NCBI GenBank assembly: GCA_938038785.1
Contig: CALHTB010000008.1
Coordinates: 1-64,000 of the forward strand
Direction: 5' to 3'
DNA length: 64,000 nucleotides
Origin: an uncultured Acidimicrobiales bacterium
GTDB taxonomy: Bacteria; Actinomycetota; Acidimicrobiia; Acidimicrobiales; SHLQ01
The translations under genes and the position numbers were made by a program. The number at the start of each line of letters is the position of its first letter. Position 1 is the first letter of the stretch. Positions 20,152 through 53,102 of this stretch are shown here, in pieces. The notes beneath the pieces were generated by a model. That model did no database searches, was not told the DNA's origin, and saw only the letters and a list, made by a program, of their open reading frames with translations.

Positions 20152-20270
20152 GTCATAGCTCCGTGTCTGCCGGCACCTCACCGTAGCCAACGAGCATCTC
20201 GGGCAACACGTTGACAAACGCGAGGCTCGGATTACCCAGGCGAGCGTTCTTCCTGGGACATACTGGGGGA

Positions 20271-20747
20271 ATGGCCATACGTCTCAAGCTCTCCGGTGCT
20301 CCTCTCGGGTACACGCTTTCCAAGGTTGATGACGCCACCGCCCCATACAAGGCGTTTGGCGAGGCAATCTGGTCAGAGGACGGGGCCGTGGCTCCGGCGG
20401 TGAAAGAGCTGGTGTTCCTGCGCACATCGATCGTCAACGAATGCCCCACTTGACTGACCTCTCATGTTGCCTCGGCGAGGCGACGCGGACTTACCGATGC
20501 CCAGATCGACGCGCTCGAAACGCCCGAGACGTGGACCGATGTCTTCGATGATGCCGAGCGCGCAGCATTGGCGTTGGCAGACGCCATGTGTGGCCAAACC
20601 AGTCAGCTCGAGCCGACGTTGATTGGTCAACTTCGGAAGCAGTACACCGAAGTTCAGCTCAGCGAGCTGATTTTGGTGTGCGGGCAAGCAAACTTGAACA
20701 ACCGAGCGGGAAATGCCGCCAAGCAACTGCTTGGCGAGAAAGACTAA
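20271..20747 (+). CDS. AhpD-like/carboxymuconolactone decarboxylase-family selenoprotein (CxxU)
   Basis: Reading from ATG 20271 (GGGGGA just upstream), codon 61 is TGA (20451-20453), and the same frame stays open to TAA at 20745-20747, giving 158 residues. The halves join into one CMD/AhpD domain: KELVFLRTSIVNECPT, then the TGA, then LTSHVASARRRGLTDAQIDA, AERAALALADAM and LSELILVCGQANLNNRAGNA. The TGA falls exactly on the second Cys of the AhpD CxxC-x3-His centre (Cys58, Sec61, His65). A SECIS-type hairpin follows at 20465-20485. AhpD-type proteins act in thiol/peroxide redox. Alternatives are a nonsense mutation or TGA-terminated short peptide; conservation after the TGA and motif placement argue against both. 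Confidence 0.88.
20465..20485 (+). promoter_or_regulatory. Candidate bacterial SECIS hairpin
   Basis: TGTTGCCTC (20465-20473) pairs with GAGGCGACG (20477-20485), nine pairs including G-U, around a GGC loop. The loop starts 20 nt after the TGA. The bacterial SECIS consensus asks for a small hairpin with the loop about 16-37 nt from the UGA and a G in the first two loop positions; this fits. Confidence 0.7.
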
Positions 20748-20750
20748 ACA

Positions 20751-22037
20751 GTGGGACATATCGTCACGATCATCGCCATTACGGTGATGCTTGCGCTCAA
20801 CGCCTTGTACGTCGCCGCCGAGTTTGCGACCGTCGGCGCCCGCAAGTCACGCATCCAGGCCGAAGCCCAAGGAGGCAACAAAGCAGCTGGCAAGCTATTC
20901 GAGATCGTCCGCGATCCGGTCAAGCTCGACAACTACGTCGCTGCATGCCAGGTGGGAATTACCCTCAGCAGCCTCATTGCCGGTTTCCTTGGCCAGGACC
21001 GCCTCACGCCAGTCTTCGAGAATTACGGCGGCCGGGCAGCGGCGATCATCGTCACCCTGATAATCATCACTGCGCTGCAGGTGATCCTCGGAGAGCTCCT
21101 CCCAAAGACCGCCGCGCTTCGCTACCCCGAGAAGCTTGCGATCGCCACGCTTCGGCCGATGCAGATCAGTCAAATGCTGTTTCGCCCGCTCGTTGCGGTC
21201 TTTAATGGTTCGGCCTTTGCGCTGATGCGGGCGGTTGGGCTCAACACCGAACACAGCCACGCCCATGTCCACTCGCCTGAAGAACTCGCGGCGTTGTTCG
21301 ACGAGAGTGCTCAGGGCGGCCTCATCGATGCCTCCGAACGAAACATGGTCGCTGGGGTGCTCAATGTTGAGCAGCGTCTTGTGCGCGAGATCATGACCCC
21401 GCGCCGACGCCTCACCGGCGTCGACGGGTCAACGACGATCGCCGACGCGCTCGAAGAGCTCGTCGGCACTCCGTTTACTCGGTTCCCGGTGTGGTCGGCA
21501 GAGTCACACGACGATGTCATCGGTCTTGCTCATGTTCGCGATCTCTACGTTGAGGCCAAACGCAGCCCCGACGCTCCTGTGGCCTCGATTGCGCGCCCGG
21601 TCCTCGACGTCGCCGAAACCCTGACGGTCCCGGCCTTGTGGAGCCGTCTCGATGAAGCTGACCGCCACGCCGCTCTCGTGATCAACGAATACGGCGACGT
21701 TGCAGGTCTCGTAACCCTCGAAGACGCAATCGAAGAAGTCTTCGGCGAAGTACGCGATGAATTCGATGTCGACCCCGATCCCATCGTGGTAAGCGACGGA
21801 CGGGTATCAGTGCAGGGCGAGGTCCTGCTCGAATCCCTGAACCAGCAGTTCCGCCTGAAGCTCCCAACCACCGATGTCGACACGATCGGCGGATTGATCT
21901 GGCACGAGCTCTCCCGAGCCCCTGACGTTGGCGAGACGGTGATGCTCGCTGGTGGAGAGCTCGAGGTGACGATCGAACAGATGGACGGGAACGCGATCGA
22001 ACGTGTCAGCTTCGTTGACCCGGAGGGAGGCCGATGA
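20751..22037 (+). CDS. CNNM/CorC-type membrane protein with CBS pair, copy 1
   Basis: A 428-residue protein with the DUF21 membrane domain (four hydrophobic segments, starting IVTIIAITVMLALNALYVAAE), a CBS-domain pair (RLVREIMTPRRRLTGVDG to LVTLEDAIEEVFGEV) and a C-terminal CorC/HlyC domain (VSVQGEVLLESLNQQFRLKL). The family is annotated as hemolysin-like and is linked to Mg2+/Co2+ export or homeostasis. GTG at 20751 begins 3 nt after the selenoprotein stop, so the two are probably coupled. The next gene overlaps by 4 bp and is a paralogue. Confidence 0.9.
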   Translation: MGHIVTIIAITVMLALNALYVAAEFATVGARKSRIQAEAQGGNKAAGKLFEIVRDPVKLDNYVAACQVGITLSSLIAGFLGQDRLTPVFENYGGRAAAIIVTLIIITALQVILGELLPKTAALRYPEKLAIATLRPMQISQMLFRPLVAVFNGSAFALMRAVGLNTEHSHAHVHSPEELAALFDESAQGGLIDASERNMVAGVLNVEQRLVREIMTPRRRLTGVDGSTTIADALEELVGTPFTRFPVWSAESHDDVIGLAHVRDLYVEAKRSPDAPVASIARPVLDVAETLTVPALWSRLDEADRHAALVINEYGDVAGLVTLEDAIEEVFGEVRDEFDVDPDPIVVSDGRVSVQGEVLLESLNQQFRLKLPTTDVDTIGGLIWHELSRAPDVGETVMLAGGELEVTIEQMDGNAIERVSFVDPEGGR

Positions 22038-23419
22038 CTGTTTCGCCCTCCCTCTTCGCCGCCGAGGCCAGCGGTGGTGGCGGCTTTGGCTCCATTGCCT
22101 TGCCAATCATTGCCATATTCTTCCTCGTCGTGATCAACGGCATGTTTGTCGCTGCGGAGTTCGCTCTTGTAGGTGCGCGGGCGAGCCGTCTTGAGCGCAT
22201 GGCTGACGGCGGCAGTAGTGCCGCGCGCTGGCTCCTCGATGTGTTTACCCGCCACGCGGGCAAGGACAGCTACATCGCCGTGGCCCAGCTCGGCATCACC
22301 TTGGCCTCGATTGGCCTCGGTATGTACGGCGAGCCAGCGATTGCAAAATGGTTTTACGGCCCGCTCGAGGATCTCGGTGTGCCCGAGACGTTCTCGCACA
22401 CGTTGGGCTTCATCATTGCGCTCAGCATCATCACCTTCTTGCACGTCGTGTTCGGCGAGATGATCCCCAAGGCGCTCGCTCTGCAGTCGCCCGAAGCGGT
22501 CAGCGTGAAGCTCAACCCGCTCATGCGGGCCTTCTCGGCCCTGTTCAAGCCAATGGTTGCCGTGTTGAACGCGATCGCATTTGCGCTCATGCGGATGCTG
22601 CGGATTCCCGAGCCCGACAAGGCCATGTCATTGCACACCAGCGATGAGCTCACGATCGTCACTGACGAGTCAGCCGAGAGCGGTGAACTCGGTGGCTTGC
22701 AGCGTGACTTGATCCGAAACATTTTCGAGCTCAGCGAGCATCCTGCCGAGGAGCTCATGGTGTCGCGTAGTCACATTCTGGCAATCGACAAGTCGGCATC
22801 GGCCGATGACATCGAGAAGCTCCTGGCCGAGTCGCCGCGAAGCCGCTACCCGGTCATCGACGGTGATCTTGATCATGTCGAGGGCCTGCTTCATGTGAAG
22901 GACTACATCCGTGTCGCTCACAGCAACACGTTTACGTCGGTCTCCGACATCGCCCGCGAAGTCCCCGCCGTCGCTGCGAGCACCTCCGCTGAAGATCTGC
23001 TCGATCGGTTCAAGCAAGCTGGCACCCACGCGGCGCTCGTGATCGACGAGTTCGGGGCCACGATCGGACTGGTGTCGCTCGACGATGTCATTGCCGAGGT
23101 CATGGAGGACGAACAGCTTGAGGAAGTTGTTACCCATGAGGACGGCTCGATGTCGGTCGATGGCGAGACGCCGTTGAGCGATCTTCGTGAGCACCTGGGT
23201 AACTCGGCGTTCGACAACAGCGATGTCGTGACGATCGCTGGCCTGGTGCTTGCCGGCCACGGCGCGGTTCCCGAGGTTGGCACGACACTGCGCCACGGCC
23301 CCTACGACGTCACCGTTGAAGCGCTCGACGGCCGCCAGATTACCAAGGTTCGGATTCTTGCAATCGACGACCTTGCCAAAGACACACCTACCGACGATCA
23401 CCACAACGACGGGCACTAG
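22034..23419 (+). CDS. CNNM/CorC-type membrane protein with CBS pair, copy 2
   Basis: A 461-residue paralogue of the preceding gene: DUF21 membrane domain (IALPIIAIFFLVVINGMFVA, AAEFALVGARASRLERM), CBS pair (HPAEELMVSRSHILAIDK to TIGLVSLDDVIAEVMEDE), and a CorC domain (MSVDGETPLSDLREHLG). The C-terminus is His/Asp-rich (DDHHNDGH). Paired CorC-type genes in tandem are common in Actinomycetota, and the two may form a heteromer; that is inference. ATG overlaps the previous stop (ATGA). Confidence 0.9.
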   Translation: MTVSPSLFAAEASGGGGFGSIALPIIAIFFLVVINGMFVAAEFALVGARASRLERMADGGSSAARWLLDVFTRHAGKDSYIAVAQLGITLASIGLGMYGEPAIAKWFYGPLEDLGVPETFSHTLGFIIALSIITFLHVVFGEMIPKALALQSPEAVSVKLNPLMRAFSALFKPMVAVLNAIAFALMRMLRIPEPDKAMSLHTSDELTIVTDESAESGELGGLQRDLIRNIFELSEHPAEELMVSRSHILAIDKSASADDIEKLLAESPRSRYPVIDGDLDHVEGLLHVKDYIRVAHSNTFTSVSDIAREVPAVAASTSAEDLLDRFKQAGTHAALVIDEFGATIGLVSLDDVIAEVMEDEQLEEVVTHEDGSMSVDGETPLSDLREHLGNSAFDNSDVVTIAGLVLAGHGAVPEVGTTLRHGPYDVTVEALDGRQITKVRILAIDDLAKDTPTDDHHNDGH

Positions 23420-52810: not shown

Positions 52811-52975
52811 CCTGTCTGTGAACCTGAGAGATTGAAGCCCCGTCGGTGCGAATCAGATGATTCGGCTCTCCAGAGATGCCACCGAGGCGATCCTTTTGCC
52901 TGAGAGTTTCGCTTTGGAACCTGGCGGGTTCGTCAGCTTGCACCTTCGGCGGTCGAATTCACGACGCTCTCTCAC
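52811..52975 (-). promoter_or_regulatory. Tandem glycine riboswitch
   Basis: Two consecutive aptamer cores are readable on the minus strand. First: GAGAGCG, then CGCCGAAGGTGCAA, then ACTCTCAGGCAAAAGGATCG. Second: TCTGGAGAGCCG, then CACCGACGGGGC, then AATCTCTCAGG. These are the conserved GAGAG / CCGAnGGnGCAA / CTCAGGnAAAAGGA blocks of glycine aptamers in the usual tandem order. It lies directly ahead of gcvT. The second aptamer's distal AAAAGGA is less well conserved. Confidence 0.92.
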
Positions 52976-53102
52976 TTCGGTTGATGGCGATATGAAGTTG
53001 TGCTGACACCGTACCCGCATTGGCGCTGCGTGACCAGGACCAAGCCTCACAGCGCAACCGGCGCTATCTTGGCGGAACTGACCTCTAGCTCAGGGAGCTT
53101 TC

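Follow-up and report, generated by a model that had tools for sequence, protein, structure and literature searches.

The window analysed here is a stretch of 64,000 nucleotides from the genome of an uncultured Acidimicrobiales bacterium. Translated from the ATG at 20271, it has one reading frame that meets a single TGA, at codon 61, and then stays open to the TAA ending at 20747, just as the original prediction had described. An ordinary listing of open reading frames yielded only 20211-20453 (80 amino acids) at this locus, in agreement with the expectation that gene calling would shorten the gene to 80 amino acids or fewer. The gene is seemingly broken by a stop codon. We consider that it is almost certainly intact and that its TGA is read as selenocysteine (Sec) at a redox active site. 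The features of the locus are listed in Table 1.

Table 1. Positions of the predicted selenoprotein gene, its active-site codons and its hairpin in the window.
Feature	Position	Strand	Remarks
Predicted AhpD/CMD-like selenoprotein CDS, complete, 158 residues	20271-20747	+	Stop TAA 20745-20747 included; start position shared by all aligned orthologues
Codon 46, Glu, proton-relay Glu (position of AhpD Glu118 / PA0269 Glu36), 12 residues N-terminal of Cys58	20406-20408	+	Identical across the 19 aligned orthologues; Glu also in most Cys homologues; relay residues from PMC3141380
Codon 58, Cys, start of the CxxU motif	20442-20444	+	TGC/TGT in every orthologue
Codon 61, in-frame TGA, predicted selenocysteine	20451-20453	+	TGA in 21/21 distinct orthologues (that of the window counted); Cys (TGC/TGT) in distant homologues
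Codon 65, His, proton relay (CxxU-x3-H)	20463-20465	+	Invariant; CAT in all 19
SECIS-type hairpin	20465-20485	+	Stem 20465-20473 / 20477-20485 (9 bp), loop GGC 20474-20476; conserved across orthologues

The full-length product matched the Pfam family CMD (PF02627; E = 2e-14, 53.8 bits, cut-off 23) and TIGR00778 (ahpD_dom; E = 1.9e-11, 43.3 bits, cut-off 27.8), and both matches span the TGA. An AlphaFold2 model was all-helical (mean pLDDT 86, pTM 0.82). Its top PDB matches were entries of Pseudomonas aeruginosa PA0269 (2IJC, 2O4D and 7XW1), with query-length TM-scores of 0.69-0.71, and AhpD was also among the top matches. With a CMD domain above the curated cut-off and an AhpD fold, the protein can be assigned to the AhpD/CMD family. 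The proton relays of Mycobacterium tuberculosis AhpD and PA0269 consist of Glu118/36, Cys130/48, His132/Tyr50, Cys133/51 and His137/55 (PMC3141380). The same spacing was found in the window protein, with Glu46, Cys58, Thr60, Sec61 and His65. Sec thus occupies the place of the second Cys, and the fifth relay residue, which is His132 or Tyr50 elsewhere, is Thr60.

Orthologues were searched for in 59 relatives and in the genome_contigs collection, and the close ones came mostly from metagenome-assembled genomes of Acidimicrobiales. A family-profile search of a 395-genome sample of the class added one distinct locus (L060). After duplicates of the same contig were dropped, 21 distinct genes remained, including that of the window. 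The other 20 are 58-77% identical to it, and in all of them codon 61 is TGA and codon 58 encodes Cys. None of the 21 has Cys at codon 61, and no second internal stop was seen in the orthologues read to their natural end. Close relatives in which stops and frameshifts vary at this codon had been named as evidence against a selenoprotein; the relatives have an invariant TGA instead. Glu46, Cys58, Pro59, Thr60, position 61 and His65 are identical in the 19 aligned orthologues, which includes the Glu, Cys, Sec and His positions of the relay, and so is the C-terminal motif GQANLNNR. In orthologue pairs, dN was well below dS on both sides of the TGA, although these values are only indicative because pairwise dS was near saturation for most pairs. 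Plasmid records contained weak homologues only, which matched part of the query at no more than 42%.

More distant homologues, from the same order and the wider phylum (about 37-71 bits), encode Cys (TGC or TGT) where the orthologues have codon 61, in motifs such as CAFC, CAYC and CRYC. Cys occupied the site in all 17 aligned distant homologue loci that lacked the TGA. The PDB chains of PA0269 also align with Cys at position 61. The placement of the TGA at the second Cys of the AhpD CxxC centre, and the Cys homologues that the original prediction suggested looking for, were thus both borne out. An in-frame UGA that is conserved in orthologues and lies at the Cys site of homologues is one of the marks of a selenoprotein. 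The TGA orthologues and the Cys homologues form the Sec/Cys pairing expected of such a gene.

A second mark, a stem-loop just 3′ of the UGA with G in a small loop, was also present. The 9-bp hairpin with a GGC loop had been placed 20 nt downstream of the TGA; this distance is correct for the loop, but the stem begins after 11 nt. Taken alone, the window hairpin is unremarkable (energy z -1.1), and a comparable stem follows 60 of the 1877 TGAs on both strands of the window. Its significance comes from conservation across orthologues and not from single-sequence energy. Over 19 sequences, 169 of 171 base-pair cells (98.8%) were formed, and two pairs were changed on both sides in a compensatory manner. 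When the codons 3′ of the TGA were reshuffled synonymously in 2000 trials, the mean was 110 paired cells and the maximum 127; no trial reached the observed 169. Codons 65-73 also have the highest synonymous conservation in the gene, with a same-codon fraction of 0.79 versus 0.41-0.42 elsewhere. Ser68, like His65, is always encoded by one codon (TCG) in the 19 orthologues. Arg70 is encoded by AGG together with Ala67 (GCC) and by AGA together with Val67 (GTC), and the sole Lys70 (AAA) occurs with GTT. In the aligned codons, the Ala67/Val67 and Arg70/Lys70 replacements are matched by base changes in the opposite arm of the stem, which is the pattern expected if an RNA stem is under selection. The covariation is modest, with five of the nine pairs never varying. 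An Rfam scan of the window gave no match at the selenoprotein gene. Its sole hit was a glycine riboswitch aptamer (RF00504, 62.7 bits) at 52878-52984 on the minus strand.

The host genome is a metagenome bin of 3.67 Mb that is 73% complete. We found in it selB (285.7 bits, above the cut-off), selD (267.4 bits) and the tRNA-Sec gene selC (66 bits), whose anticodon was given as tca by ARAGORN. Of the four genes that the original prediction proposed to look for, only selA was not found in this 73%-complete bin. The contig with selB is 3186 bp long and breaks off shortly 5′ of this gene, on the side where selA immediately precedes selB in each of the four relatives inspected. All 18 further genomes of the genus or family that were tested have selA. 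The occurrence of selB together with selC is a signature of Sec decoding (Romero et al., PMC1273633). A genome with no selenocysteine machinery, which would have spoken against the prediction, is therefore not what we observed. Among the 59 relatives, none of the 13 genomes without both selA and tRNA-Sec has a close orthologue; this is the expected direction, although with such small numbers it is not evidence by itself. The host genome also encodes a formate dehydrogenase alpha subunit (L063, G000:C9:118671-122114, minus strand) with TGA at the usual Sec site (DSCNRT-U-HAPS) followed by a stem-loop. By these features, it is a second predicted selenoprotein gene of the host and provides a positive control for Sec use within the same genome.

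In the standard mechanism of bacteria, which depends on SelB and a SECIS element, Sec is inserted at UGA instead of termination. The conserved parts of the window gene suggest that a ribosome at UGA 61 would meet the hairpin 20465-20485 in the mRNA. SelB carrying selenocysteyl-tRNA-Sec would bind this hairpin, and Sec would be inserted without termination. Such insertion at codon 61 is strongly supported by the comparisons above. The predicted centre of the product would be C58-P-T-U61-x3-H65, with Glu46 twelve residues before Cys58, i.e. the proton-relay layout of AhpD with selenium replacing the sulfur of the second Cys. Most likely, Sec61 would be activated via Glu46 and His65 and would attack a hydroperoxide or a disulfide. 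Resolution by Cys58 would then yield a Se-S bond, and the enzyme would be recycled by a dithiol reductant. By analogy with the known relay, we infer the attacking residue, the substrate, the electron donor and the thiol or peroxide redox chemistry of Sec61 and Cys58. The protein is presumably made and active in peroxide or thiol redox. Taken together, the gene very probably encodes an all-helical AhpD/CMD-family selenoprotein of 158 residues in which UGA 61 is decoded through SelB and the hairpin and which would work in thiol or peroxide redox. The overall interpretation of the original prediction is thus supported.

A TGA that replaced TGC or TGT through a sequencing or assembly error, or in a young pseudogene, would give the same picture in a single genome. 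One base change would restore a Cys CxxC centre, and the genome is a metagenome bin. However, the 20 other distinct orthologues come from independent assemblies and carry the same TGA at 58-77% identity, and purifying selection continues 3′ of it. The recurrence in independent genomes excludes a base-calling error, and we rejected error and pseudogene alike as having practically no chance of being correct. The frame that stays open across the TGA would also fit a code change by which TGA is read as an ordinary amino acid, or readthrough without selenium. However, TGA is the commonest stop of the long open frames in the window (35 of 61), which excludes a general code change, and several of the orthologues themselves terminate at TGA. 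The Sec machinery and the conserved hairpin are present, and residue 61 aligns with a catalytic Cys. A code change was therefore rejected, TGA being otherwise used as a stop in the window and in the orthologues; readings of this kind keep a very small probability, slightly above that of an error.

A selenoprotein with another reaction of the AhpD fold deserves more weight, although we consider it rather unlikely. Instead of reducing peroxide directly, the protein might carry out reductive dehalogenation of the type known from the CxxC debrominase Bmp8, or it might be an adaptor that reduces AhpC. Bmp8 (6ohi/6ohj) was among the profile and fold matches, but its match was much weaker than that of PA0269 (E = 2e-4 versus 7e-16). 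Thr60 stands in place of AhpD His132, CPTU is unlike the CxYC and CxFC of the Cys forms, and a conserved AhpC neighbour is lacking; against this, the Glu, Cys, Sec and His positions of the AhpD relay are all present. PA0269 itself reduces H2O2 weakly (PMC3141380). The gene context does not help to decide the function, since its conservation ends with the closest relatives. A tandem pair of CBS-domain HlyC/CorC-like genes (20751-23419, plus strand) begins three bases after the stop of the selenoprotein gene. Such neighbours are kept only in the closest relatives, namely L035 and, as one gene, L020 and L022. Among the flanking genes listed for the orthologue loci, no operon partner or redox gene was seen to be conserved. 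More speculatively, and with a low probability, the subfamily may be a Sec-obligate clade of the AhpD fold, recorded here mainly in Acidimicrobiales and with no known member that has exchanged Sec for Cys. Its reaction would then be one that Cys cannot sustain and not the general peroxidase work of AhpD. Reductive dehalogenation or the reduction of a specific endogenous hydroperoxide could be such a reaction, for example.

AhpD-like (COG2128/TIGR01926) and CMD-like (PF02627) selenoproteins with CxxU were reported in the Sargasso Sea and GOS surveys (PMC1088965, PMC2398784), which confirms that the kind was already known, and they are listed in a 2026 review (PMC13188914). The window protein has in common with them the AhpD/CMD domain, a CxxU centre in which Sec is the second Cys, and a SECIS-type hairpin 3′ of the UGA whose small loop contains G. 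Unlike the AhpD-like survey proteins, which we compared by description only, its subfamily comes from Acidimicrobiales-type genomes and falls below the TIGR01926 (peroxidase-related / AhpD-like) cut-off, scoring 31 bits against a curated 81.8. Four NCBIfam models showed partial similarity over the AhpD core, but the protein is not a member of any of them: NF053654 (39.8 bits, cut-off 310), NF041238 (21.3, cut-off 175), NF041047 (22.5, cut-off 110) and NF041537 (17.5, cut-off 510). With PA0269 it shares the fold, and Glu36, Cys48, Cys51 and His55 correspond to Glu46, Cys58, Sec61 and His65. However, the motif is Cys-Ala-Tyr-Cys in PA0269 and Cys-Pro-Thr-Sec in the window protein, whose N-terminal part is also slightly longer. 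No Cys form of the subfamily was found in the genomes searched. A literature search for selenoproteins together with Acidimicrobi* in one paper found none, which is a weak negative from open-access literature only.

Because the scores are far below the curated selenoprotein models and no Cys form was found in the genomes searched, the window gene and its orthologues would represent a new, uncatalogued, Sec-only subfamily of a known kind in Acidimicrobiales-type bacteria. This subfamily, for which there is no curated model, would be a Sec-only AhpD-like addition to the known selenoproteome. As ordinary gene calling cuts such genes at the TGA, about 21 genes could be re-annotated at once. In addition, the lack of close relatives with Cys at the site makes the subfamily a natural case for studying what Sec gives that Cys cannot.

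Two divergent CMD proteins of relatives, L028 (G002:C236) and L029 (G022:C117), also have an in-frame TGA, in the motifs CNNU (CNN-TGA) and CHYU (CHY-TGA), respectively. Each TGA is followed by a strong stem-loop with a GGU-type loop. They probably represent additional subfamilies of AhpD-like selenoproteins within the same order.
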